Shown here in pieces: positions 17,809 through 31,903 of a DNA stretch of 64,000 bases; within the stretch, counting starts at the first letter, position 1, and every line of letters begins with the position of its first letter. The stretch is from contig CANLYJ010000003.1 in NCBI GenBank assembly GCA_947495295.1, forward strand, positions 1 through 64,000, in the 5' to 3' direction. The position numbers were made by a program, and so were the translations under genes. The notes under the pieces are model-generated. The model was not told the origin of the DNA. It did no database searches and was given only the letters and a program-made list of their open reading frames with translations. Origin of the DNA: an uncultured Paracoccaceae bacterium. GTDB lineage: Bacteria > Pseudomonadota > Alphaproteobacteria > Rhodobacterales > Rhodobacteraceae.

Positions 17809-18666
17809 TCAGGCGATCAGGTCAGGCCAGATCGCCTGGTTTTTGGCCGCAAACGGGCCGATATGACCAATGTCACGCAGACCATACCGCGTCGGGTCCA
17901 CGACCAACTGGGTTTTTGCGGCACCTTGATAGAATTGCATCAAACGCCAGACTACCGCAGGTGGGACCATCACGTCATCCTTCATGGCGACAAATTTCAT
18001 CGGGGCCTTCAACCCGTTCCAATCCGGCATCGGCAGGGTGTAGCCGATATCGCGCGCAAATGAACTGCGCGAGGTACACCAGCGGCGCCATTGCCAGAAC
18101 ACGCCCGACGGGATGTTACTGCCAAAACGCAGACGCTTGCCCGGCATATACCCGGCGACAGCCGTGGCAGGCGGCCCCATAAGATACCAATAGGCCGCCG
18201 CCGTCAGACGATACGGGAACGGATGGTCCATGACATGGGCCGGACCGGATGCAACGGCGATTACCCGGTCAATCCGGTCCAGATCGGTCTGGAATGACAA
18301 CAACATTCCCCCAAGTGAATGACCTATGACCCACAGCGGCAAATGCGGGAACATACAGCGCAGATGATCACGCGCGACCTGCTGGTCATGCACACCCCAA
18401 TCAGCCATCGTGGCCTTGGACGCCTTCATTGGGCCGCGGGCGGATGCCCCGAAATCCCGGTAGTCATAGGTCATGCAGGCGATGTTCTGCGTGGTGGCCA
18501 GCCAGCCCGCGAAATCCGCATAATAGCGTTGCGGGACACCCGTGGCACCATGCAGGACAGCGACAGCCTTTGGCGGTGTTGCGGTCAGATAAAGACGGCC
18601 CCGCAGCTTGTAACCGCCAGAGTAGAACCACTGATCCTCGAAACCGATACCCACATGCATGTTCAT
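17809..18666 (-). CDS. Alpha/beta hydrolase
   Basis: VLHGATGVPQRYYADFAGWLA; nucleophile elbow VIGHSLGGMLLS. Confidence 0.88.
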   Translation of the reverse strand: MNMHVGIGFEDQWFYSGGYKLRGRLYLTATPPKAVAVLHGATGVPQRYYADFAGWLATTQNIACMTYDYRDFGASARGPMKASKATMADWGVHDQQVARDHLRCMFPHLPLWVIGHSLGGMLLSFQTDLDRIDRVIAVASGPAHVMDHPFPYRLTAAAYWYLMGPPATAVAGYMPGKRLRFGSNIPSGVFWQWRRWCTSRSSFARDIGYTLPMPDWNGLKAPMKFVAMKDDVMVPPAVVWRLMQFYQGAAKTQLVVDPTRYGLRDIGHIGPFAAKNQAIWPDLIA

Positions 18667-18684
18667 CACGTGCCCTCCAAATAA

Positions 18685-18700
18685 TAGACCGGTCGGTCTA
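18685..18700. promoter_or_regulatory. Putative TetR-family operator 1
   Basis: TAGACC-GGTC-GGTCTA inverted repeat in the divergent intergenic region. Confidence 0.7.
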
Positions 18701-18713
18701 TTTGATATAGCAG

Positions 18714-18729
18714 TAGACCAGTCGGTCCA
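18714..18729. promoter_or_regulatory. Putative TetR-family operator 2
   Basis: TAGACC-AGTC-GGTCCA, near copy of operator 1, 29 bp start-to-start. Confidence 0.65.
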
Positions 18730-18749
18730 ATCATGCAATACCTGATTGC

Positions 18750-19301
18750 ATGGCATCGACACGCACCGAATTGGCGATCAAGGCAGGCTATCTGTTCCAG
18801 CAAAGGGGCTATCACGGCGTTGGGCTGTCCGAGATATTGGAAAGCGCGGGCGTCCCCAAAGGCTCGCTTTACCACCACTACCCCAACGGCAAGGCCGATC
18901 TGGCGCTGGCAGCAGCCGAAATCGCCGCCACCGAAGTGCTGCGGATCATTGATGCCTCATTCGATGAGGCCGCGACCTACCGGGATGGGGTGACGACCTA
19001 TTGCTACAAACTGGCCAAGTATTTCGACATTCACGAAGGCAAGATCGGCTGCCCGGTTTCAGCAACCCTACTGGGCGGGCCCGATAACGCAGTATTCCGC
19101 GAAACGCTCAGCGCGATCTATAGCAGATGGATGGACCGGCTCGCCGAACACGCGGTCCGCTTCGGGCAATCGGCAGCACAGGCAGATCACAACGCAAGGC
19201 GGCTTTTTTTGTCCTTGGAAGGATCATGGACCCTGGCCCGCGCACGCGGCGATTCAAACGTGATCCGGGAACTGCCATCGCTAGTCTGCGAGGCGACGTA
19301 A
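18750..19301 (+). CDS. TetR/AcrR-family transcriptional regulator
   Basis: HTH YHGVGLSEILESAGVPKGSLYHHYPNGKADLA. Confidence 0.93.
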   Translation: MASTRTELAIKAGYLFQQRGYHGVGLSEILESAGVPKGSLYHHYPNGKADLALAAAEIAATEVLRIIDASFDEAATYRDGVTTYCYKLAKYFDIHEGKIGCPVSATLLGGPDNAVFRETLSAIYSRWMDRLAEHAVRFGQSAAQADHNARRLFLSLEGSWTLARARGDSNVIRELPSLVCEAT

Positions 19302-19462: not shown

Positions 19463-19843
19463 TTAGGCATCCTCAAGAACTTTTCGTGCTGCGCGAAAGC
19501 ACTCTAGCGCTTGGGGGACGCCGCAATAGATGCCGATGACATGAATAATTGCCCGAATTTCGTCTGGCGTGACCCCATTGTTGATCGCGCCACGGCAATG
19601 GATTTCCCACTCGTGCATTTTGCCCAATGCACCGATCATTGACAGATTCATCATCGAACGCGTTTTGGCGTCAATCACATCGTCGCCCCAACCAAACCCC
19701 CAGCACCAAGCTGTCATCGCTTCTTGGAAGGGACGCGTAAAGTCATCTGCCGCCGCAAGGTTTTTTTCGACGTATTCCGCGCCCAGCGTGGATTTGCGTT
19801 GCTCTAACCCCTTGAGGAACAGCTCTTCATCAAATGCGCTCAT
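19463..19843 (-). CDS. Carboxymuconolactone decarboxylase-family protein
   Basis: AWCWGFGWGDDVIDAKTRSMMNLSMIGALGKMHEWEIHCRGAINNGVTPDEIRAIIHVIGIYCG. Confidence 0.88.
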   Translation of the reverse strand: MSAFDEELFLKGLEQRKSTLGAEYVEKNLAAADDFTRPFQEAMTAWCWGFGWGDDVIDAKTRSMMNLSMIGALGKMHEWEIHCRGAINNGVTPDEIRAIIHVIGIYCGVPQALECFRAARKVLEDA

Positions 19844-19847
19844 GTCT

Positions 19848-21293
19848 TCAGTTTCTCAATTTAATTGCGACGTTCTTCGTCTGCACGTAGTTCCACAAGG
19901 CCTCGCGCCCCTTTTCACGGCCATAGCCAGATTTACCGTAGCCACCAAAGGGCGTCTCAACCCCGCCTGCGTACCATTCATTCACAAAGACCTGACCCGC
20001 CCGCAGTCGCTGTGCGGCCCGCGTGGCCCGATCCAGCTTGCTGGTAAAGACACCGCCAACCAATCCATAAGGTGTGCCATTGGCTATCTTGATCGCTTCT
20101 TCGTCGGTTGAGAATTTCAGAACCGAGAGTACAGGACCGAACACTTCTTCATTGGCGATGGTCATGTCAGGTGTCACGCCCGTCAGGATGGTTGGTTCAA
20201 GGAATGCTCCGGGGATGTTCATTTTGCGCCCCCCAGTTGCCACAATGGCCCCTTGTGCCTGTGCATCGCTCACCATTTGTGCTGCACGGTCACGCTGGCC
20301 TTCGGAAACCATTGCTCCCATTGTTGGGCCAAACTCCGGTTGGTCGATGCCCGGTTTCACTGCTAGCGACTGCGCCACGCCGACCATGCGATCGAACAGT
20401 TCATCATGCACGCTATCATGAACAATCACGCGGCTCATCGCCGAGCAAACCTCACCTGCGTTGAAATAGATGCCCCACCTTACATCATTCTCAAACGCTT
20501 CAAGGTCAGCATCTTTATGGACGATAGCGGCGGACTTACCCCCAAGTTCCAACACGCAAGGCACGACATTCTGGGCGGCAGCCGTCGCGATGGCGATCCC
20601 TGTTGGCACTGATCCAGTAAAGACAATCTGGTTTACATGAGGATGCGCAGACAAGGCGGCCCCCGCCTGATGGCCCAAACCGCACAGGATGTTCACCGCA
20701 CCTTTGGGAAAGCCCACGGCCTCGGACGCTTGGGCGAACCACGCATTACTAAGCGGCGTCAGCTCCGGTGTCTTGATGACACATGTGTTTCCAGTTGCCA
20801 GTGCCGCAGACAGCGAACGGGCCGTCATTTCGACGGGGTAGTTCCACGGGATGATCTGGGCAGAGACGCCAAAGGGTTCGTAGGTGGTGAAATCAAAGTA
20901 ATCCTTGCCAAGCGGTATCGAACGCCCTTCGACGGTTTCAGCCTGATTGCCATAATATTCGAAATACCGTGCAGCGCCTTCGACTTCGATCCGCGCCTCC
21001 CAAAGCGGCTTGCCTTGTTCCAACGTCAGAACCTTTGCAAGTTCGTCGATGTGATCGAGCAGATAGCGCCCCATGGCTTGCACCATGCGCCCGCGTACGA
21101 CGGGGCGCAGGCCAGACAGCGCACCGGATTGATGCACGCGATGTGCCGCCATCACCGCACGGTCTACATCGCCCTCATTGGCAAGTGCTTGTTCCGCCAG
21201 CTTTTCACCCGTGCCAGGGTTGATGACATCGATCCACCCCGCGCCACCGTCGATCCAAGTGCCGTCAATGTAGTTTTGCCAACAGGTCTTCAT
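19848..21293 (-). CDS. NAD(P)-dependent aldehyde dehydrogenase
   Basis: FTGSVPTG, LELGGKSAAIV, NAGEVCSA catalytic Cys, EEVFGPVLSV. Confidence 0.95.
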   Translation of the reverse strand: MKTCWQNYIDGTWIDGGAGWIDVINPGTGEKLAEQALANEGDVDRAVMAAHRVHQSGALSGLRPVVRGRMVQAMGRYLLDHIDELAKVLTLEQGKPLWEARIEVEGAARYFEYYGNQAETVEGRSIPLGKDYFDFTTYEPFGVSAQIIPWNYPVEMTARSLSAALATGNTCVIKTPELTPLSNAWFAQASEAVGFPKGAVNILCGLGHQAGAALSAHPHVNQIVFTGSVPTGIAIATAAAQNVVPCVLELGGKSAAIVHKDADLEAFENDVRWGIYFNAGEVCSAMSRVIVHDSVHDELFDRMVGVAQSLAVKPGIDQPEFGPTMGAMVSEGQRDRAAQMVSDAQAQGAIVATGGRKMNIPGAFLEPTILTGVTPDMTIANEEVFGPVLSVLKFSTDEEAIKIANGTPYGLVGGVFTSKLDRATRAAQRLRAGQVFVNEWYAGGVETPFGGYGKSGYGREKGREALWNYVQTKNVAIKLRN

Positions 21294-22033
21294 TTGGGTG
21301 TGATCCGATGCTGGAAAAGGTGATCGTAATGTGGCTTCATCCGTCTGTGGACAAGCCGAACGCGTTCTGGGGCATCAGCGACTTCGACATAACGGCGCAC
21401 TTGCGGTTTCAGACCTGTGGATAGTGCGAGATTGGTGTGAAACGATCCGCCGTCCCACCAGCTATGCGCGGACGGATCACCGCCCGGTTGCCACGACATC
21501 GCCTCTGGCACGAACGGGATGCCGACAGCATCGCAGAATGCCGCGACCATTTTGTCCGGGTCTTCAAGCAGATCGTCGCTGTCGATCACAGGCGGTCGTG
21601 TGCCATTCAAAGCCGTCAGCAGATCGAATAACGCGCGTTGTTCTGGAAAACCAACTTCAAGCTCGTCGAAATCGGGCCATTTGTTGTACATGCTTGAGAT
21701 CGTCTTGGCCGGATCGCGGATTAAGAAGGCATGGGTGAAATGCCCCAGAAATTCTGGCGTCCACATGTGGTTGATATAGCGAGGGAAGTCCTTGAGGAAA
21801 ACGGGGCCTTTCGCGGCGCGTGTCTGAATATCTTCCCATACGCTTTGGATGCTCAGGCCTTTGATCGTTTTCTCGCCCTCTTTGAAACGGGGCCAAAGCG
21901 GGTCTGCGCCTTGATACCAAGCCTCTCCAAAGGGTTCGTGCAGGCAGTCGAGATCGCCTCGCTGGCGCATCATCCATTCAAACGCGGTGGAGGTAGAGCG
22001 TGGAATTGCCCAAAGCGCGATGATTTTATGCAT
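21290..22033 (-). CDS. Sulfotransferase-family protein
   Basis: N-terminal PAPS-binding-type loop ALWAIPRSTSTAFEWMM; FLIRDPAKTISSMYNKWPDF. Confidence 0.82.
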   Translation of the reverse strand: MHKIIALWAIPRSTSTAFEWMMRQRGDLDCLHEPFGEAWYQGADPLWPRFKEGEKTIKGLSIQSVWEDIQTRAAKGPVFLKDFPRYINHMWTPEFLGHFTHAFLIRDPAKTISSMYNKWPDFDELEVGFPEQRALFDLLTALNGTRPPVIDSDDLLEDPDKMVAAFCDAVGIPFVPEAMSWQPGGDPSAHSWWDGGSFHTNLALSTGLKPQVRRYVEVADAPERVRLVHRRMKPHYDHLFQHRITPK

Positions 22034-22859
22034 GGAGGCTCTCCAACAACATGCTCTGCGGTGTCGTTGGCGCGATACCGAGATCCTTCATGATCCGCCA
22101 GTAAAGTGCTGTATCATGGCCAATGACCGGTTTGCCCAGGTTTGCCTCCGCCGCGCGGGCCAGATGCAGCGGGCGTTGCGGCAAGCCGTTCGGACCACTG
22201 CGAAAATTGCACATGCCGTTGATCAGATAAGCGTCAGCATTGGGGGCCTGTTCAGCAACGAAAGAAAAGCTGCGATCAAACAGATCGCCATCAAATATCC
22301 AGCGTTTTGCATTCACAGCCTTTTGGTCAGGGAACCAACCCTGGTCGACGAAATTCCCCGCCCACAGCACGTCAAAGCCAGCCTCTCGCAAGAACCCAGT
22401 GGCGCCCTGCCACCAAGCAGGCCAATGATAGGCGGCATTCAACGCGACCTTTTCGACATTCATTGCGCGCAAGGCTTCGACCATCGCATAGCCGGCCATA
22501 TGAAAACGAGTTTCATATTTCTCGGACAGATCGGCGCAATGCTGGCGGATACCATCAACACCCAATCCAACGGCATGAACCCAATTGGACCCGACCTGAC
22601 CGCAGACATCGACGCCATTGCGGGCCATACAATGCACAAAGTCTTCCATCATCCCGAAGTTCTTTTTGCGCTGGTTCAACCCATGCACGTAGTTTGGCAC
22701 ATGCAGCATCCAGCCATGCACGCCGACACTTTCGGGCGACAGGCGCAGGAAATCAGACGGGGCTGCGTCGTAATCAAACGGCGGGCAAGTAAATCCGACT
22801 TGATGTGGGAACAGCTTTTGGTCTGGCGTCCATTTCTCAGGCATTGCGAAATCAGCCAT
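22026..22859 (-). CDS. Asp/Glu racemase-superfamily protein, arylmalonate decarboxylase/maleate isomerase-like
   Basis: Two-domain pattern; QVGSNWVHA, GYAMVEALRAMNVEKVALNAAYHWP, NADAYLINGMCNFRSG, KPVIGHDTALYWRIMKDLGI. Confidence 0.65.
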   Translation of the reverse strand: MADFAMPEKWTPDQKLFPHQVGFTCPPFDYDAAPSDFLRLSPESVGVHGWMLHVPNYVHGLNQRKKNFGMMEDFVHCMARNGVDVCGQVGSNWVHAVGLGVDGIRQHCADLSEKYETRFHMAGYAMVEALRAMNVEKVALNAAYHWPAWWQGATGFLREAGFDVLWAGNFVDQGWFPDQKAVNAKRWIFDGDLFDRSFSFVAEQAPNADAYLINGMCNFRSGPNGLPQRPLHLARAAEANLGKPVIGHDTALYWRIMKDLGIAPTTPQSMLLESLHA

Positions 22860-23964
22860 CAATCGCCTCCTTCATCCATCCTTGCAGATGCATGACGGGA
22901 TGCTCTGAATTAACACCGCCTTTGGGATCAACGACCAACGGGCCGGGTTTGTAGCCGCGCGAACGAAGGCCCCGTTGCACGCTTTCGACCAGATAAATGT
23001 CTTCTTCAACCGTCGTTTCACGGTCTTGCACGGCTAGTTGGCGGACCTTGTCGTCCTCCACACCACCGACAGAATACCACCCACGCCACACCACCACATG
23101 ATCGGCATCAATCGCACGCCAATGATAGGTGTTCAGCACATTGCCCGGATAGACTTGGAACGAGAACATCGGCCAGAGGAACCAGCTGGAGTATTCATAT
23201 TGGTGGGCAAACCCTGAATGGACATCATAGGTCATGTCTTCAAGGCTTTGACACTCGGTTGTATGGCGCAAGCACCTGCCTTGCGGCTGGATGTCATAGG
23301 TTTCTGGTTTGATCACGCCGTTGGCAAAGGTCGGATGGTTGAGCGAACAATGATAACACTCAGAGTAGTTTTCGACCGAGATTTTCCAATTGCACCTCTC
23401 TGGGATGTCGACCCATTCAAGCGGTTTCAACTCAGCCCAGTTTGGCACCCAATCCTCCAACTCAGCGCGTGCTTTCGGGAACCAGTCTTCCATTGGGGCA
23501 GCGTCTGGATCGAGGTTCACAAAGACGAAGCCAACGAACTCTTCTGCGCGCACTTCGGTTAGGCAGATGCCGGATTTATCAAACCCTTCAACAGCAATGA
23601 TGTTTGGCCCTGCACGCAACTCACCCGTCAGCTCGTACGTCCAAGCGTGATAGGGGCAGACCACGACGCGGGTCGTCCCGGTACCACTCACCAACTGGTG
23701 CGCGCGGTGCTGGCAGACGTTGTAGAAAACGCGGATTTTGGCGTCGCGTCCACGGATCGCAAAAAGGCTCTCTCCCGCAATTTCAAACGTGGCGTAGTCG
23801 CCCACTTTTTCAAGCTCTGACGCATGGCACCCAAACTGCCATGTCTGCGCAAGAAGGCCCGCGCGCTCGACCTCAAATACCTGTGGATCGGTGTAGTACC
23901 GCGCGGCCAATGATCTGATTGGATCTTTTTTTCGGCCAACCGCTTCGCTGCCAGAGGCCATCAT
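22852..23964 (-). CDS. Rieske [2Fe-2S] oxygenase alpha subunit (betaine/carnitine oxygenase-like)
   Basis: Rieske CQHRAHQL...CPYHAWTYELTGEL; mononuclear-iron region NYSECYHCSLNHPTF. Confidence 0.92.
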   Translation of the reverse strand: MMASGSEAVGRKKDPIRSLAARYYTDPQVFEVERAGLLAQTWQFGCHASELEKVGDYATFEIAGESLFAIRGRDAKIRVFYNVCQHRAHQLVSGTGTTRVVVCPYHAWTYELTGELRAGPNIIAVEGFDKSGICLTEVRAEEFVGFVFVNLDPDAAPMEDWFPKARAELEDWVPNWAELKPLEWVDIPERCNWKISVENYSECYHCSLNHPTFANGVIKPETYDIQPQGRCLRHTTECQSLEDMTYDVHSGFAHQYEYSSWFLWPMFSFQVYPGNVLNTYHWRAIDADHVVVWRGWYSVGGVEDDKVRQLAVQDRETTVEEDIYLVESVQRGLRSRGYKPGPLVVDPKGGVNSEHPVMHLQGWMKEAIDG

Positions 23965-24848
23965 TTCTCCTCCGCATAGTAAAGGCCAAGTTGGTGGCGG
24001 CGTTTGTGGAAGGTCTCGACACGTTTCGGGATTTCATCGCTGGCCACAGCGATCACGAACGACAAAAGCGTTTCAAGAAGCGCTATGATGCTTACCGACG
24101 AAGAAAAGAACTGAGGGGTTTCAACAGCGACGACGAAGCGATGATCGGCCATGCGAATGATCGGGCTGGCGGGGCTGTCAGACAAGGCCACGATTGTCAT
24201 GCCTTGCTCTTTCGCAATAGCGACGGCTTCCACGACCTCGGATCGATAGGGCTTGCAGGTCACTGCGATCAGAATGTCGTTGTTGTCCGCCCAAGCCAGG
24301 TCATCAACAGGTGTCGAGCCGGGGCGCGGTATCGCGTGAAATTCTGTCATACCGGTCGAGGCCAAGTAGGTGAAATTTCGTGCGACCGAGTTGTTGACCC
24401 CAACACCCAAGGTGAACACTCGCCGCGCGTTCCAAATCGCGTCGGCGGCCGTTTTTAGGTCATCCGTTGAAATGCCAGCGAAGGTATCTTCGATGTTGGA
24501 CATCACATCGCGCACCATGTCGGCATAAAGGCCACCAAGATCGCCAGATTTTGAGATGTCCTGCAACCACCGTGCGCGGTCGGGAAAATCCGCAGCCCCA
24601 CTGCGAATTGCGTCACGGAAAGGCGCGCGGAAATCTTCGTAGCCCTCAAATCCCACCTGCCGCGCCATGCGCACAACAGTGTTGGGTTTTACATTCGCAG
24701 CTTGCGCAATTTCGCGCACAGTTGAAACACCCACATCGCGCGGGTTTTCTAACACGTAAGTTGCGGCCTTGCGGGCCTCTGGCGTCAATTCTGACAGCTC
24801 ACCCGCGAGGCGGTGCAGAATCGTGTTTGATACATCTGTCCCATTCAT
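23961..24848 (-). CDS. MurR/RpiR-family transcriptional regulator (HTH + SIS)
   Basis: STVREIAQAANVKPNTVVRMARQVGFEGYEDFR; SIS region GVGVNNSVARNFTYL. Confidence 0.9.
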   Translation of the reverse strand: MNGTDVSNTILHRLAGELSELTPEARKAATYVLENPRDVGVSTVREIAQAANVKPNTVVRMARQVGFEGYEDFRAPFRDAIRSGAADFPDRARWLQDISKSGDLGGLYADMVRDVMSNIEDTFAGISTDDLKTAADAIWNARRVFTLGVGVNNSVARNFTYLASTGMTEFHAIPRPGSTPVDDLAWADNNDILIAVTCKPYRSEVVEAVAIAKEQGMTIVALSDSPASPIIRMADHRFVVAVETPQFFSSSVSIIALLETLLSFVIAVASDEIPKRVETFHKRRHQLGLYYAEEK

Positions 24849-24916
24849 GATTGACGATGGTACTTTTGTCCGCTTAGCCTGTCGAGAGAAAATGCGACTC
24901 AAAAAGGAACGTTTCT

Positions 24917-27352
24917 TTGGCCACTGATTTCCCGACCACTGCGCGCGTTGTCATTGTTGGCGGTGGCGTCATGGGTGTTGGGCTTGCCTACCATCTTGGC
25001 CACGAAGGCTGGGGCTGTGAAACTGTCCTGTTGGAAAAAGCAGAGCTGACATCAGGCAGCACATGGCATGCGGCAGGGCAGATTACGCATTCGACTAGCA
25101 GCTTTGGTTTGGGCAAATGTGTCGACTATAACATCGGTCTCTATTCCGGAGGACTAGAGACCGAGACCGGCCAACCAGTCACTTGGCACGGCTGCGGTTC
25201 GTTCCGGCTGGCCTATACGACAGATGAGATGGACTGGCTGCGCCATACCCTGTCGGTCGGGCGTTCTTTGGGCTTCAACATCGCATTGGTGGGGCCTGAA
25301 AAAGTGGCTGAACTGCACCCGTTCTACAATCTCGATGGTGTTCTGGGCGGGCTGCACACGCCTGATGACGGTCACGTCGATCCGACCAACGTTACGATGG
25401 CGATGGCAGCTGGAGCGCGCCAAAAAGGTGTTAAAATCATCCGCCAGTGCCGCGCAACCAATATCACGCAATTGCCGTCTGGCGAATGGCAAGTCGAGAC
25501 GGACAAGGGCACGATCACCTGCGAACACGTGGTCAACGCAGGCGGTACTTATGCACGGCAGATGGGGGAATGGTCAGGGCTGCAACTGCCCATGACTTCT
25601 ATGACGCACCATTATTTTGTTACCGAACCTGTGCCAGAATTTGAGGCGCTGGAGACAGAATTGCCAGTGATCCGCGACGACAAGAAGGTGTCCGGTTATA
25701 TCCGTATGGAACAAAAGCGCGGGCTGATCGGGATTTACGAAAAAGAGAACCCGAACTCCGTCTGGCACGATCATTGCCCTTGGGATTATGAAAACTGGCT
25801 GTTTGATGCCGACTATGACCGCGTCATGCCCTATCTTGAGGAAAGCCTGAATCGCATGCCTATTTTTGCGGAACTCGGCATTCAACGCGAAGTCCACGGC
25901 GCGATCAGCCACCCACCTGACGGCAACCCATTGATTGGTCCAGCACCCGGCATGCGCAATTACTGGTGCTGCTGTGGCACGCAGATCGGCATCGGCTGGG
26001 GCCCTGGCCTGACGCGCGAACTGGCGCGGTGGATGGTGCACGGCGCGGCAGATATTTCCATGCGCGACTACGATCCGCGCCGCTTTGGCAGTTATGCCAC
26101 GAAGGACTGGCAGGTGGTGAAGGCCGAAGAAGACTACTGCTTGCGCCACGAAATCCCGTTCCCGCATTTCAACCGCCTCGCAGGGCGACCAATAAAACCT
26201 TCGCCACTGCATGACCTGCTGACCTTCAAAGGGGCGGTGCACGAGGAAGTCTATGGGTTCGAGCGTCCCCGCTTCTTTGCCAAAGGCATCGCGCAGGAGG
26301 ATCACTATTCATTCAACCGCACCCCAGTGGACGACATGGTCGCCGCTGAGGTGAAGGCGGTGCGCAGATCCGTCGGCATCATGGACGTGACCGCATTCAC
26401 CAAGGTCCTCGTTGAAGGGCCGGATGCCTATGCCTTGTTGGATCGTCTTACAGCGAACAGGATGCCGCAAATGGTCGGCTCCATCACGCTGACGCACATG
26501 CTTAATCGCGCGGGTCGGATTGAGTTGGAAACGACAATTATACGCATGGCGGAGGATCAGTTTTATCTGGTCTGTGCTGCATTCTTTGAACAAAGATTGC
26601 TCGACCATCTCGCGCAACACCGGGCGGGTGAGGACGCAAAGATCACTGCGCTATCCTCTGATTGGTCCGCCCTTTCGCTCAATGGTCTAAAGGCACGGGA
26701 TGTTCTCGCCGCTTGCACAGATGCTGACCTGTCAAACGCTGGGTTCCGCTGGCTGTCTGCGCAGAAAATCACTGTGGCAGGCCACGATATCTGGGCCTTC
26801 CGCATGTCTTATGCGGGTGAATTAGGGTGGGAATTCCACATGCCAAATACGGCCTGTCTGGACGTCTACAACGCATTATGGACGGCAGGTGAGGCGCACG
26901 AAATTGCCGACTATGGCTCATTCGCTATGAACGTGATGCGGATGGAAAAGGGTTTTAAGGGTGCGGGAGAGCTGACCAACGAAGTCACACTGGCCGAAGC
27001 GGATGTGTTGCGGTTTGCTCGCACGGACAAAGACTATCTGGGCCGCGACAAGACGTTGAACACCGACCGCAAGTGGGTCTGTGCCTACCTTGAAATCGAA
27101 CCGGACGGCAAAGCGGATGGCCACGGTGGCGAAGCGGTGATGCTGAACGGGAACGTCGTGGGCGCAACGGCATCTGTGGTGTACGGCCCGACGGTGGGTA
27201 AAATCCTCGCTTTCGCCTATATCAAACCCGCCGCCGCCGTTCCCGACACCGCGCTGTCAGTGGTCATACACGGCGAACCCAGAGACGCACGCGTCTTGGG
27301 CGCACCCGCTTATGACCCGGACAGCCTGAAACCTCGAATGGATGCGCCATGA
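24917..27352 (+). CDS. GcvT-family FAD-dependent oxidoreductase (dimethylglycine/sarcosine dehydrogenase-like), TTG start
   Basis: FAD motif VVIVGGGVMGVGLAYHLG; LTSGSTWHAAGQI; C-terminal aminomethyltransferase-like domain; AAGGAAC upstream of the TTG. Confidence 0.92.
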   Translation: MATDFPTTARVVIVGGGVMGVGLAYHLGHEGWGCETVLLEKAELTSGSTWHAAGQITHSTSSFGLGKCVDYNIGLYSGGLETETGQPVTWHGCGSFRLAYTTDEMDWLRHTLSVGRSLGFNIALVGPEKVAELHPFYNLDGVLGGLHTPDDGHVDPTNVTMAMAAGARQKGVKIIRQCRATNITQLPSGEWQVETDKGTITCEHVVNAGGTYARQMGEWSGLQLPMTSMTHHYFVTEPVPEFEALETELPVIRDDKKVSGYIRMEQKRGLIGIYEKENPNSVWHDHCPWDYENWLFDADYDRVMPYLEESLNRMPIFAELGIQREVHGAISHPPDGNPLIGPAPGMRNYWCCCGTQIGIGWGPGLTRELARWMVHGAADISMRDYDPRRFGSYATKDWQVVKAEEDYCLRHEIPFPHFNRLAGRPIKPSPLHDLLTFKGAVHEEVYGFERPRFFAKGIAQEDHYSFNRTPVDDMVAAEVKAVRRSVGIMDVTAFTKVLVEGPDAYALLDRLTANRMPQMVGSITLTHMLNRAGRIELETTIIRMAEDQFYLVCAAFFEQRLLDHLAQHRAGEDAKITALSSDWSALSLNGLKARDVLAACTDADLSNAGFRWLSAQKITVAGHDIWAFRMSYAGELGWEFHMPNTACLDVYNALWTAGEAHEIADYGSFAMNVMRMEKGFKGAGELTNEVTLAEADVLRFARTDKDYLGRDKTLNTDRKWVCAYLEIEPDGKADGHGGEAVMLNGNVVGATASVVYGPTVGKILAFAYIKPAAAVPDTALSVVIHGEPRDARVLGAPAYDPDSLKPRMDAP

Positions 27353-28419
27353 CCCTGCCCAAAACAATGCGCGCGATGGTCACAATGGGGCATGGTGACC
27401 TGGACCAAATGGTGCTGCATGACGACTGGCCGCGGCCCGACCCCGCTGCGGGCGAGGTTTTGATCCTCGTTGGCGCTTGCGGTCTGAACAATACAGACGT
27501 GAACACGCGCTCGGGCTGGTATTCCAAAACCGTAACCGACGCCACATTCGCGGAAGTGGGCGAGGATGACCCCACTTGGGGCGGTGCGCCGATTACATTT
27601 CCGCGCATCCAGGGGGCCGATGTCTGCGGAAAGATCGTCGCAGTTGGCACGGGTGTTGATCCTGCGCGCATTGGTGAGCGGGTCATCACCGATGGCTGGT
27701 TGCGCGATGCCACTGACCCCGACAACATGGACAAGACAGGCTATTTCGGATCGGAGCGTGATGGCGGTTTCGCCGAATTCACCACGACGCCTGCCAACAA
27801 TGCACTGGCGGTCACCTCTGACCTTTCGGATGCAGAACTCGCGACCTTTTCGTGCTCCTATTCGACAGCTGAAGGTATGTTGACCCGCGCGCAAGTTGGG
27901 CCAAACGATACTGTCCTCATACCCGGTGCATCCGGTGGCGTTGGCGGTGCATTGGTGCAGCTGGCCAACCGGCGCGGCGCACGTGTGATCGCAATGGCAT
28001 CGGACGCGAAACACAAAGACGTCGCGGCCCTTGGCCCAGACAAGATTTTGCCCCGCGCGCCCGAAAATCTACGGACGAGATTAGGCGATGAAAAGGTCAC
28101 TGTTGTGGCGGACGTTGTTGGCGGCCCATATTGGCCGACCTTGATCGACATTCTTGAACGCGGTGGCCGTTATACATGCTCTGGCGCGATTGCGGGGCCG
28201 ATGGTCGAACTGGACTTGCGTACCTTCTATCTGCGCGACCTGACCTTTACCGGTTCAACCGTGATCTTGCCCGAGGTCATGCCAAACCTGATCCGCTACA
28301 TCGAACAGGGCGAGATCAAGCCGGCGCTTGCGGAGACATATTCGCTGGATCAACTGCACGAGGCGCAAGCCGCTTTTATCGCAAAAACGCATACAGGTAA
28401 CATTGTAGTAGTCCCATGA
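27349..28419 (+). CDS. Zinc-type/quinone-oxidoreductase-like alcohol dehydrogenase
   Basis: GACGLNNTDVNTR, GADVCGKIVAVG, IPGASGGVGGALVQLA. Confidence 0.9.
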   Translation: MTLPKTMRAMVTMGHGDLDQMVLHDDWPRPDPAAGEVLILVGACGLNNTDVNTRSGWYSKTVTDATFAEVGEDDPTWGGAPITFPRIQGADVCGKIVAVGTGVDPARIGERVITDGWLRDATDPDNMDKTGYFGSERDGGFAEFTTTPANNALAVTSDLSDAELATFSCSYSTAEGMLTRAQVGPNDTVLIPGASGGVGGALVQLANRRGARVIAMASDAKHKDVAALGPDKILPRAPENLRTRLGDEKVTVVADVVGGPYWPTLIDILERGGRYTCSGAIAGPMVELDLRTFYLRDLTFTGSTVILPEVMPNLIRYIEQGEIKPALAETYSLDQLHEAQAAFIAKTHTGNIVVVP

Positions 28420-29522
28420 AGGTCACACGCATCTCTGTCTACCATGTGTATCTTCCGCTTGAGCATCCCTATTGGCTGTCTGGTGGGCGGTTGAAGTTTG
28501 AAATGCTGGACGCGACGCTGGTCAAAATCGACACCGATGCAGGTATCATCGGTTGGGGTGAAGGCACGCCGTGGGGTCACACCTATGTGCCCGCGCACGG
28601 CCCCGGTATCCGTGCTGGCATTGGCACGATGGCGCCTTTTGTCATGGGGCTTGATCCGCGCCGGGTGCTGGACGTGGAACGCGCGATGGACAGTTCGTTG
28701 CCAGGGCATCTTTATGCAAAGAGCCCGATTGATATGGCGTGCTGGGACATTGCAGGGCAAGCAGCGGGCATGCCGATTGCCGATCTCATGGGGGGTGGAT
28801 CACGCACACCGCGCCCCATCGCGTCCTCCGTCGGGGCCAAAACTGTGGAAGAAACCCGCGCTGTGATCGACCGCTACCGCCAACGGGGCTATACCGCGCA
28901 TTCGGTCAAGATCGGCGGTGACGTTGCCCGTGACATCGCAAGAGTGCGTGACGTCGAGGACATCCGACGGGACGGCGAAATCATCCTTTATGATGTGAAC
29001 CGTGGATGGACCCGCCAACAAGCGTTGCGGGTCATGTCCGCGACCCAAGACCTAAGCGTGATGTTCGAACAGCCTTGCGAAACGTTAGACGATATCGCGG
29101 CGATTTCCGGCAAGCACGCGGCCCCAGTGTCGGTGGATGAGGCGTTGGTGAACCTGCAAGATGCCACGTGCATCGCGCGTGATGGATTGGCCGAGATCTT
29201 TGGCATCAAACTCAACCGCGTTGGTGGCTTGACCAAAGCTGCCCGCATGCGAGACGTCGCCTTAGCGCATGGCATCGACATGTTCGTCATGGCGACCGGC
29301 GGCTCGGTGCTTGCTGATACCGAAGCGCTTCATTTGGCCGCCACGATCCCGGATGCAAACTGCCACGCGGTCTGGGCCTGTCAGGATATGCTGACCGTTG
29401 ACATCGCTGGCGGGCGTGGGCCCCGGAACGTGGACGGTCATTTGCACCTGCCCGAAGTTCCGGGTCTTGGGGTGCACCCGGATGAAGATACCCTGGGTGA
29501 TCCCGTGGCGATCTATACATGA
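28416..29522 (+). CDS. Mandelate racemase/muconate lactonizing enzyme family protein (enolase superfamily) 1
   Basis: HSVKIGGD, LYDVNRGW, MFEQPCETLD, VSVDEAL, GIKLNRVGGLTKA. Confidence 0.9.
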   Translation: MKVTRISVYHVYLPLEHPYWLSGGRLKFEMLDATLVKIDTDAGIIGWGEGTPWGHTYVPAHGPGIRAGIGTMAPFVMGLDPRRVLDVERAMDSSLPGHLYAKSPIDMACWDIAGQAAGMPIADLMGGGSRTPRPIASSVGAKTVEETRAVIDRYRQRGYTAHSVKIGGDVARDIARVRDVEDIRRDGEIILYDVNRGWTRQQALRVMSATQDLSVMFEQPCETLDDIAAISGKHAAPVSVDEALVNLQDATCIARDGLAEIFGIKLNRVGGLTKAARMRDVALAHGIDMFVMATGGSVLADTEALHLAATIPDANCHAVWACQDMLTVDIAGGRGPRNVDGHLHLPEVPGLGVHPDEDTLGDPVAIYT

Positions 29523-30622
29523 AGGTTAGCCGCCTCACGCTTTGGTCGCTCGATCTGACAAGCCATGAAACCTACTACATGGCCGAAGGGAAAACCTGTG
29601 ACACGGTCAAGACCCATGTGCTGTGTCTGGAAACGGATACCGGTTTGAAAAGCTGGGGCGAGGTGTGCCCGATCCCGCATTACCTGCCTGCTTTCGCGGA
29701 TGGTGTGCCAAGTGCGATCCGGGAAATGGCTCCTGAAATTCTGGGCATCACCCCCACTGGAATCGACGCCCCTATGCGCAAACTTGATGGGTTCCTGCAG
29801 GGACATCTCGCGGCAAAATCAGTCGTTGATATGGCGCTGTGGGATCTCTTTGGCAAAGCGACCAACCTTCCGCTATACCAGCTTTTGGGCGGACGAACCC
29901 GTCGCGACATGCCGCTCTATCATTCGATCACCTGTGTAGCGCCCGACGACATGGCACGGATCGCGAAAGAAGCTCACGCCACAGGCATTCGGCAGTTTCA
30001 GGCAAAACTCGGGGCCGACGCCGATTGGGAAGCGGACGCGGAACGACTGACGAAGGTGCGCGAAGCTGTAGGTCATGGGCCGTTGGTTTATGGCGACTGG
30101 AATTGCGGGGCCACAAAACTGCATGCCACACGCACAGGTCGCGCCGTTGCGCATCTGGATGTGATGCTGGAACAGCCCTGCAAAACGCTGGAAGACTGCG
30201 CCGCTGTCCGGCAAGCGACTGGCTTGCCCATGAAAATCGACGAAGGGGCTTATGATCTCGCATCCCTCATGCGGGCTTCTGAGCTTGGCGTATTAGACGC
30301 AGTCGCGCTGAAGCTGTCGAAATTCGGGGGGCTTTCGGCTATGCGCCGTGCGCGTGATCTCGCGGTGCATCTGGGAGCTGAAATCTGCGCCGAATGCACA
30401 TGGGGCTCGGACATCGTCACAGCCGCCGCGCTCCATTTCGCGGCCTCGACGCCGCAAGGTGTGTTGTTCAACACTTGTGATCTGTCGTCCTATGTCGGAC
30501 CACGGATCGCACCCGATTGCCCGACACGCGAAAACGGCCGCATCGCCCCGCCAACCGGCGCAGGATTAGGCGTTACACCTGACTTGGAGCACCTTGGCAA
30601 TCCGATTTTGGAATTGGACTAA
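29519..30622 (+). CDS. Mandelate racemase/muconate lactonizing enzyme family protein (enolase superfamily) 2
   Basis: FQAKLGAD, VYGDWNCG, MLEQPCKTLED, MKIDEGAYD, ALKLSKFGGLSAM. Confidence 0.9.
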   Translation: MKVSRLTLWSLDLTSHETYYMAEGKTCDTVKTHVLCLETDTGLKSWGEVCPIPHYLPAFADGVPSAIREMAPEILGITPTGIDAPMRKLDGFLQGHLAAKSVVDMALWDLFGKATNLPLYQLLGGRTRRDMPLYHSITCVAPDDMARIAKEAHATGIRQFQAKLGADADWEADAERLTKVREAVGHGPLVYGDWNCGATKLHATRTGRAVAHLDVMLEQPCKTLEDCAAVRQATGLPMKIDEGAYDLASLMRASELGVLDAVALKLSKFGGLSAMRRARDLAVHLGAEICAECTWGSDIVTAAALHFAASTPQGVLFNTCDLSSYVGPRIAPDCPTRENGRIAPPTGAGLGVTPDLEHLGNPILELD

Positions 30623-30625
30623 GAC

Positions 30626-31903
30626 ATGCAAAAACTGACATCTCAATCCGATTGGATCGCGCGCGCACAAACCGTCCTGCCGGCTGGCGGTTTTGGAAAT
30701 TTTGACCCCGGCATCATGATTGCCCGTGGGGAAGGCAGCCATGTTTGGGACGAGGACGGAAACGAATACATAGACTACCTGATCGGATCTGGCCCAATGC
30801 TTTTGGGCCATGGCCACCCCGAGGTCATGGAAGCGGTTCTTGAACAGCTTCCTAAAGGCATGACATTTTTCGCCAACAACGCCAAAGGCGTTGAGCTGGC
30901 AGAGGCCATCGTGGAGGCTGTGCCGTGCTGCGAGCAGGTTCGCTTCGTCGCATCTGGTGGAGAGGCCGATATGTATGCCATCCGCCTTGCCCGCGCCTAT
31001 ACGGGTCGTAACAAGATCCTGAAATTTGAAGGCGGCTATCACGGCATGAGCGCTGAAGCGCAAATGAGCCTCGCGCCCTCCGCCCGAGTAAATTTCCCCC
31101 AGGCCGTCCCGGATAGCGCGGGGATCCCGCAGGGTGTAGCGGACCAAATGCTGATTGCGCCTTACAATGACTTGGTTGCGGTCGAAGCGCTTTTGAATGA
31201 TCATAAGGACGTCGCGGCCATTATCGCAGAACCGTTGCAACGGATCATTCCCCCCGAACCAAAGTATCTGCAAGGCTTGCGTAACTTGTGTGACAAACAC
31301 GCAGTGTTGCTGATCTTTGATGAAATCGTCACCGGATTTCGACTGGCCTATGGCGGCGCGCAGGAGCGCTATGGCGTGACGCCTGACATTTGTACTTTGG
31401 GCAAAATCGTCGGCGGCGGCTTCCCACTTGCGGCCCTTGGGGCCAGCGCCGACATCATGCGGCATTTTGACAAGTCTGTTGTCGGTGCTGACAAATGGCT
31501 CATGCAACTCGGGACCTTGTCCGGGAACCCCGTCGCAGCAGCTGCGGGGCTCAAAACAATGGAGGTTCTGCGTCGGGCGGGAAGCTATGACAAGCTGCGT
31601 GCCATCGGCAAATCCCTTCAAGACATGCAAAGTGACGCCCTGAACACAGCTGGTGTCCCGCATCAAATTTGCGGCGATGAAACCCTGTTTGATATCTTTT
31701 TCACTCAGGCCGCATGCAGGGACTATCGTTCAGCAAAACACGATCACCCTGCGCAAAATACCGCATATAACGCCGCGCTGCGCAAACATGGTGTCTTCAA
31801 ATCGCCCGGTAAACTCTATCCATCTCTCGCGGTCACAGAAGCGGATCTGGAACACACACAGGACGCCGTTTCGAAAGCAGTGCATGCAATTTTCTTGGGC
31901 TAA
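30626..31903 (+). CDS. Class III aminotransferase / glutamate-1-semialdehyde aminomutase-like
   Basis: LLGHGHPEVMEAV, VRFVASGGEADMYAIRLARAYTGR, IFDEIVTGFR, TLGKIVGGGFPLAALG. Confidence 0.92.
   Translation: MQKLTSQSDWIARAQTVLPAGGFGNFDPGIMIARGEGSHVWDEDGNEYIDYLIGSGPMLLGHGHPEVMEAVLEQLPKGMTFFANNAKGVELAEAIVEAVPCCEQVRFVASGGEADMYAIRLARAYTGRNKILKFEGGYHGMSAEAQMSLAPSARVNFPQAVPDSAGIPQGVADQMLIAPYNDLVAVEALLNDHKDVAAIIAEPLQRIIPPEPKYLQGLRNLCDKHAVLLIFDEIVTGFRLAYGGAQERYGVTPDICTLGKIVGGGFPLAALGASADIMRHFDKSVVGADKWLMQLGTLSGNPVAAAAGLKTMEVLRRAGSYDKLRAIGKSLQDMQSDALNTAGVPHQICGDETLFDIFFTQAACRDYRSAKHDHPAQNTAYNAALRKHGVFKSPGKLYPSLAVTEADLEHTQDAVSKAVHAIFLG

Follow-up and report, generated by a model that had tools for sequence, protein, structure and literature searches.

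This work concerns a putative catabolic gene cluster from an uncultured Paracoccaceae bacterium (assembly GCA_947495295.1, contig CANLYJ010000003.1, positions 1 to 64,000; this whole stretch of 64,000 nucleotides is called the window). Eleven open reading frames (ORFs), with coordinates and strands that agree with an earlier listing, form two divergent and overlapping operons with a conserved regulatory element between them (Table 1). Family labels were assigned through Pfam profile searches, and equivalog-type models were judged against their own cut-offs.

Table 1. Features of the divergent cluster, with positions in the window.
Feature	Position	Strand	Supporting match or motif
CMD, carboxymuconolactone-decarboxylase-like	19463..19843	-	PF02627 68.5 bits; PcaC model 117.6 bits (cut-off 155.7)
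ALDH, betaine-/aminobutyraldehyde-dehydrogenase-like	19848..21293	-	PF00171 503 bits; BADH 411 bits (cut-off 669)
ST, sulfotransferase, gene 2 of optional AMD-ST module	21290..22033	-	PF19798 67.9 bits
AMD, arylmalonate-decarboxylase fold, gene 1 of optional AMD-ST module	22026..22859	-	fold match 4ix1
Rieske oxygenase, CntA-like (carnitine monooxygenase)	22852..23964	-	6y8j E 4.9e-63; ENYSECYHC with bridging Glu
RpiR/MurR-family regulator (HTH_6 + SIS)	23961..24848	-	PF01418, PF01380; start at conserved MNGT
Divergent regulatory element, conserved	24828..24872	.	two half sites resembling TG[AG]TACA, spaced by 30 bp, around a TTGAC box
DMGDH (dimethylglycine dehydrogenase)-like FAD/folate enzyme (DAO + FAO_M + GCV_T)	24917..27352	+	4pab/5l46 E ~1e-142
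MDR-family reductase ("ADH")	27349..28419	+	PIG3/crotonyl-CoA-reductase-like; QGAD..G replaces GHE
MLE1, enolase superfamily	28416..29522	+	~88% identity to 3eez; cis-3-hydroxyproline dehydratase model 316 bits
MLE2, enolase superfamily	29519..30622	+	323 bits, cis-3-hydroxyproline dehydratase model; 4mgg E 7e-76
GSAT, class III aminotransferase, GSA-aminomutase type	30626..31903	+	PF00202; subfamily model 387 bits (cut-off 398)

On the minus strand, CMD and ALDH are separated by a 4-nt gap, and the junctions ALDH/ST, ST/AMD, AMD/Rieske, and Rieske/RpiR overlap by 4, 8, 8, and 4 nt. The AMD/Rieske value assumes that AMD begins at the ATG at 22859. On the plus strand, DMGDH/ADH, ADH/MLE1, and MLE1/MLE2 each overlap by 4 nt, and a 3-nt gap separates MLE2 from GSAT. 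The 68-bp intergenic region (24849-24916) is given by the RpiR ATG at 24848 (MNGTDVS...), which is the start in homologues, and not by an upstream TTG. The ORFs thus confirm what a preliminary description of this DNA had read, namely eleven genes in two tightly coupled divergent operons with these overlaps and this gap. Pfam also confirms its family labels, except that AMD falls below the Pfam cut-off and is recognized by fold. The "ADH" does not have the GHE motif of zinc alcohol dehydrogenases.

Between RpiR and DMGDH, the sequence TGATACATTTGTnnCATTCATGATTGACGATGGTACAnnTGT is nearly invariant in 67 loci. This element is about 45 bp in length, spans the divergent promoters, and contains two half sites that resemble TG[AG]TACA, spaced by 30 bp (at 24828 and 24858 in the window), with a TTGAC box in between. 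It partly overlaps the RpiR start codons, and the conservation runs on through the non-coding part. In the window genome there is one match with zero mismatches; the other matches, with three mismatches, look like background, and no wider regulon was identified by this genome search. Since the element is near-invariant in 67 loci and occurs once in the genome, joint local control of the two operons appears likely, as the preliminary description had supposed for a catabolic cluster. We infer that RpiR is the protein that binds the element.

The cluster is not unique to this bacterium. A scan of the whole collection with an alignment of AMD proteins found 229 relatives, from which 80 loci were returned and compared by their ORFs. 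These are mostly from marine Rhodobacterales, and some are labelled SAR116, Rhizobiales, or Granulosicoccaceae. The recurring plan of one arm is GSAT-MLE2-MLE1-(MLE3)-(cupin)-MDR-DMGDH, where brackets mark optional genes. The opposite arm, divergent from DMGDH, reads RpiR-Rieske-(GFA)-(HCCA-like)-AMD-ST-(ALDH)-(FrhB)-CMD-(BKACE). RpiR, Rieske, and DMGDH are found together in the same divergent order in 54 of the 80 loci and in many genera, and many of the other loci are cut by contig ends; this arrangement is therefore not due to chance. In the 21 loci with good coverage on the left, MLE1 and MLE2 are always present and GSAT is found in 16. Where there is enough right flank (43 loci), CMD occurs in 33 and ALDH in 24. 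Relatives possess two to four enolase genes per cluster. Many also have a GFA-family gene between Rieske and AMD, and HCCA-isomerase-like and FrhB genes are present in some loci. A search of the plasmid collection for AMD gave distant Planktothrix matches only.

In relatives, the cluster usually holds one to three DddQ-family cupin genes and often also a third enolase, MLE3. In one locus of Ruegeria arenilitoris, the cupin gives a full-length alignment to DddQ of R. lacuscaerulensis (4la2) with E 6e-94, and copies in other loci, with up to three in tandem, match PF16867 and keep the Y..H.H...E.Y motif. When DddQ genes were taken from genomes that mostly do not contain AMD, 10 of the 20 loci examined had them inside this cluster, and two more had dddQ next to the MDR gene only. 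Among 54 genomes of the Ruegeria-like genus to which R. arenilitoris belongs, MLE1 is found in 47 and DddQ in 45 (44 both, 3 MLE1 only, 1 DddQ only, 6 neither; Fisher p = 2e-5, which overstates the evidence because related genomes are not independent). The stronger fact is physical linkage, with dddQ at most 1.4 kb from MLE1 in 43 of the 45. The window genome gave no match to dddQ at 1e-8, so the window holds a version of the cluster without dddQ, and the cluster as such is widespread among marine Rhodobacterales.

In R. pomeroyi and R. nubinhibens, dddQ probably shares a transcript with an MDR028 gene (SPO1593, ISM_14095), the product of which is divergent from AcuI (PMC3338564). The window "ADH" is the counterpart of these genes by family and position. 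The locus was therefore not undescribed, as had been proposed; it is the dddQ neighbourhood, mentioned in passing in PMC3338564, and the pathway itself is without an assignment. A full-text literature search for this gene combination found no paper, and one pairing dddQ with mandelate racemase gave no match. No published assignment was found for cluster genes beyond MDR and dddQ in a coverage that did not include the primary DddQ papers.

The sequences of two enzymes strongly suggest that the cluster carries out N-demethylation. The Rieske protein has carnitine monooxygenase CntA (6y8j) as its closest structure, with a full-length match, and its CxHR...CxYH motif is accompanied by a Glu in place of the bridging Asp, a trait of CntA/GbcA-type enzymes for quaternary amines. 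The DMGDH-like enzyme is closest to dimethylglycine dehydrogenase (4pab/5l46). Its DAO, FAO_M, and GCV_T domains and flavin-linking His motif are present, and GSTWHAAG is found in 73 of 75 homologues. Demethylation of glycine betaine in Roseobacters has been assigned to other enzymes, MtgBCD (PMC12478193). BCCT carriers are encoded in or beside the cluster of three relatives (L020/L098, L025, L101) and point to a betaine as the substrate. The two BCCT genes examined in the window genome are located on other contigs.

For MLE1, MLE2, and MLE3, the best family model is cis-3-hydroxy-L-proline dehydratase (NF043002; 392 bits for MLE3, Table 1 for the others), and all three scores are below the equivalog cut-off of 500. 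The muconate cycloisomerase model gives 87-143 bits, far below these values. MLE1 contains VKIGG and KLNRVGG, MLE2 contains AKLGA and KLSKFGG, and DVN/DWN, EQPC, and DE motifs are found as well; both have the two catalytic Lys residues and the Mg-binding residues of MLE-subgroup enzymes. The preliminary description had likened the enolases to HpbD. They are closer to cis-3-hydroxy-L-proline dehydratase, as the HpbD-group structures 2pmq and 4h2h rank below 3eez, 2qdd, and 4mgg (165 vs 268 bits for MLE1). The last of these, 4mgg, is presumably a cis-3-hydroxy-L-proline dehydratase. The structure 3eez is an ortholog of MLE1, and 2rdx is about 80% identical to MLE3; we take these to be proteins of R. 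pomeroyi and R. nubinhibens. This cluster thus appears to be the origin of several enolase structures from structural genomics. Further enolase paralogues, a third and a fourth, were noted at L028:3361-4467 and L047:2282-3409. GSAT carries LGK.IGGG as the motif of its pyridoxal-phosphate-binding Lys. The "ADH", judged from its missing GHE motif, looks like an MDR enzyme of the quinone/enoyl-reductase type. In Roseovarius-like loci (L047, L049, L060, L064, L068, L080, L081), CMD has a BKACE gene as its neighbour, after which come a porin-like gene and another two sulfotransferase genes.

Taken together, the eleven genes are read here, with moderate confidence, as one RpiR-controlled divergent unit that degrades an amino-acid betaine, in a form of the marine dddQ cluster that is without dddQ. 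An N-methylated, chiral, amino-acid-like substrate had already been proposed, and it fits the CntA-type Rieske, the DMGDH, the hydroxyproline-type enolases, and the BCCT carriers of relatives. As a working hypothesis for the substrate and the order of steps, the betaine would enter through a BCCT-type carrier, whose gene lies elsewhere in the window genome but, in some relatives, in the cluster or next to it. The Rieske oxygenase, which in relatives is often accompanied by a GFA-family protein, would strip off one of the N-methyl groups to give formaldehyde, and the DMGDH-like enzyme would move the next methyl group onto folate. MLE1 and MLE2 (elsewhere also MLE3 or DddQ) could then take the alpha proton, which would lead to epimerisation or to loss of a beta substituent. 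GSAT would remove the nitrogen, and ALDH could oxidise the semialdehyde to a dicarboxylate. The most economical concrete route, which we regard as doubtful, starts from 3-hydroxyproline betaine. It would yield 3-hydroxyproline and then pyrroline-2-carboxylate, which opens to 5-amino-2-oxopentanoate, followed by 2-oxoglutarate semialdehyde and 2-oxoglutarate. Since 5-amino-2-oxopentanoate is an isomer of 5-aminolevulinate, it is plausible for a GSA-type enzyme. Homarine degradation was considered as another candidate, and a literature search for it gave no match.

Several points weigh against betaine degradation as set out above. No enzyme of the window cluster passes the equivalog cut-off of its family model, so each reaction is drawn from subfamily resemblance. 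There is no transporter gene among the genes of the window cluster, and the element is absent upstream of both BCCT genes examined in the window genome. The 3-hydroxyproline route gives no function to CMD or to the MDR reductase, both of which are common in the cluster. The BKACE beside CMD in Roseovarius, of the 3-oxoadipate type, favours a C6 dicarboxylate or a longer skeleton, in those strains at least. In addition, an R. pomeroyi dddQ mutant produced 97% less dimethyl sulfide (DMS), so DddQ acts on dimethylsulfoniopropionate (DMSP) in the cell (PMC5395565).

The frequency of CMD suggests a rather unlikely alternative, in which an unsaturated or lactone dicarboxylate of C6-C7 is formed. The MLE enzymes would be cycloisomerase-like, CMD would decarboxylate a carboxylactone, and BKACE would cleave 3-oxoadipate, with a lysine- or pipecolate-type betaine (an N-methylated C6 compound) as substrate. 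The one BKACE tested scores 478.6 bits with the 3-oxoadipate:acetyl-CoA acetyltransferase model, above its cut-off of 350, BKACE is present in 7 loci, and the HCCA-isomerase-like and FrhB genes of some loci would also agree with such a product. However, BKACE is confined to the Roseovarius-like loci, CMD is under the PcaC cut-off, and the muconate cycloisomerase model fits the enolases much less well than the hydroxyproline dehydratase model does.

DddQ is a demonstrated DMSP lyase and is in the cluster of many strains. The cluster might thus serve DMSP or another sulfonium compound, with DddQ-type lyases cleaving it and the Rieske, GcvT-containing, and enolase enzymes processing analogues such as gonyol. 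The induction of dddQ by DMSP and the lower DMS upon dddQ loss agree with this (PMC5395565). It is nonetheless quite unlikely. No acrylate-handling partners (acuI, acuK, or prpE type) or DMSP genes were seen in the conserved gene set, and the dddQ-adjacent MDR gene of R. nubinhibens gave no relief from acrylate sensitivity (PMC3338564). The Km of DddQ for DMSP is 22 mM (PMC5395565), the window cluster and genome do not have dddQ, and the amine-type FAD/folate demethylase and the aminotransferase point to nitrogen. If the cluster degrades an amino-acid betaine, the native function of DddQ could tentatively be beta-elimination of a nitrogen-betaine intermediate, with DMSP cleavage as a side activity and another enzyme covering this step in the window; the 97% loss of DMS in the R. 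pomeroyi mutant counts against such a role. A variant of the HpbD pathway, in which an enolase epimerises 4-hydroxyproline betaine before N-demethylation and D-hydroxyproline oxidation, would use the same kinds of enzymes (Rieske, FAD demethylase, enolase) and has its structures among the enolase matches, but it is very unlikely given their lower rank, the aminotransferase, the two to four enolases of relatives, and the eleven window genes, none of which encodes a D-hydroxyproline oxidase or deaminase.

The misfit of the sulfotransferase and the AMDase-like protein with a betaine pathway had been recognized earlier. It is explained by AMD and ST being an optional two-gene module. They occur together in 78 of the 80 loci. 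The cluster is found without them at L144, L148, L149, L154, L158, L206, and L210-L214, and the pair stands apart from the other cluster genes next to a TRAP-type permease (L018), Liv-type ABC genes (L026), or a BCCT carrier and an Ldh_2 gene (L024, in a genome with its main cluster at L145). This add-on probably feeds a further substrate into the pathway. TRAP-type transporter genes adjoin AMD-ST in L018, directly upstream, and in L051, which suggests that it acts on an imported acid. The "AMDase-like" label rests on the predicted fold, as the Pfam score is 20.5 bits with a cut-off of 25.9. The model (pLDDT 91.8) matches 4ix1 best (function unknown, E 1e-18), then arylmalonate decarboxylase and maleate isomerase. 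The first Cys site reads GSNW. The idea that AMD lacks any candidate catalytic Cys was rejected, since the Cys in GMCNFR is kept in 80 of 82 homologues; it is replaced in the two most divergent members. ST has the 5'-phosphosulfate loop and 3'-phosphate R..S motif expected of sulfotransferases that use 3'-phosphoadenosine-5'-phosphosulfate, with PRSTSTAFE in 79 of 79 homologues and IRDP..T..S in nearly all. Its model (pLDDT 78.6) gives sulfotransferases as top fold matches, including CurM/OLS ST, at a TM of about 0.5. A tie to CurM-type sulfonation-elimination chemistry is not claimed, as this weak fold ranking would be its sole basis.

Some further genes were observed. The window genome has a run of LysR, ALDH, peptidase-like (324 aa), unknown (565 aa), small (216 aa), and BCCT genes (L165, G000:C4:82500-102400), of which the unknown, the small protein, and BCCT resemble genes that flank AMD-ST in genome G073 (L024). 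The AMD N-terminus is repeated in two further, incomplete copies beside a full AMD gene at G098:C123:24886-25578 (L014, L015); these copies are possibly tandem-duplication remnants or an assembly effect. Boseongicola-type loci (L078, L087, L090, L091) are without RpiR and DMGDH and have a DAO-type oxidase nearby; in two of these loci, Liv-type ABC transporter genes are present as well. Adjoining the cluster, at 17809-19301 in the window, are alpha/beta-hydrolase and TetR regulator genes with a head-to-head overlap. The latter matches the AcuR model weakly (39.7 bits, cut-off 247).

The dddQ gene, from which DMS production is inferred, ranks in ocean surveys as one of the two DMSP-lyase genes of highest abundance (PMC5395565). 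It sits in, and co-occurs with, an amine-demethylation cluster without acrylate genes, which suggests that this DMS marker may belong to a pathway for a nitrogen compound. The inference of DMS from dddQ therefore deserves a direct test. The cluster also narrows the candidate betaines to a small set that can be tested by knockout in genetically tractable Roseobacters, and it provides a genomic home for enolase structures deposited under generic names (3eez, 2rdx, and probably 2qdd and 2pce).

Compared with known systems, the Rieske protein shares with CntA the full-length match, the bridging Glu, and a LVESVQRGL.SRGY tail. CntA works with CntB to release trimethylamine from carnitine, whereas the window cluster has no CntB-like reductase gene and has a DMGDH partner instead of trimethylamine release. 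The match to dimethylglycine dehydrogenase (4pab, 5l46) is full-length over all domains, with the WHAAG motif conserved. The HpbD pathway of Pelagibaca (2pmq/4h2h) combines Rieske and FAD-type N-demethylation with an MLE-subgroup enolase acting on the betaine. The window enolases are from another branch, and GSAT, CMD, and MDR are present in addition. They keep the single-Lys second-strand motif and the sixth-strand Lys of cis-3-hydroxy-L-proline dehydratase. In the dddQ cluster of R. pomeroyi (SPO1593-1596) and R. nubinhibens (ISM_14085-14095), the MDR reductase gene adjoins dddQ. The window has the divergent order of MDR, DMGDH, RpiR, Rieske, and enolases found around dddQ; its copy is without dddQ and MLE3 but possesses the AMD-ST module.

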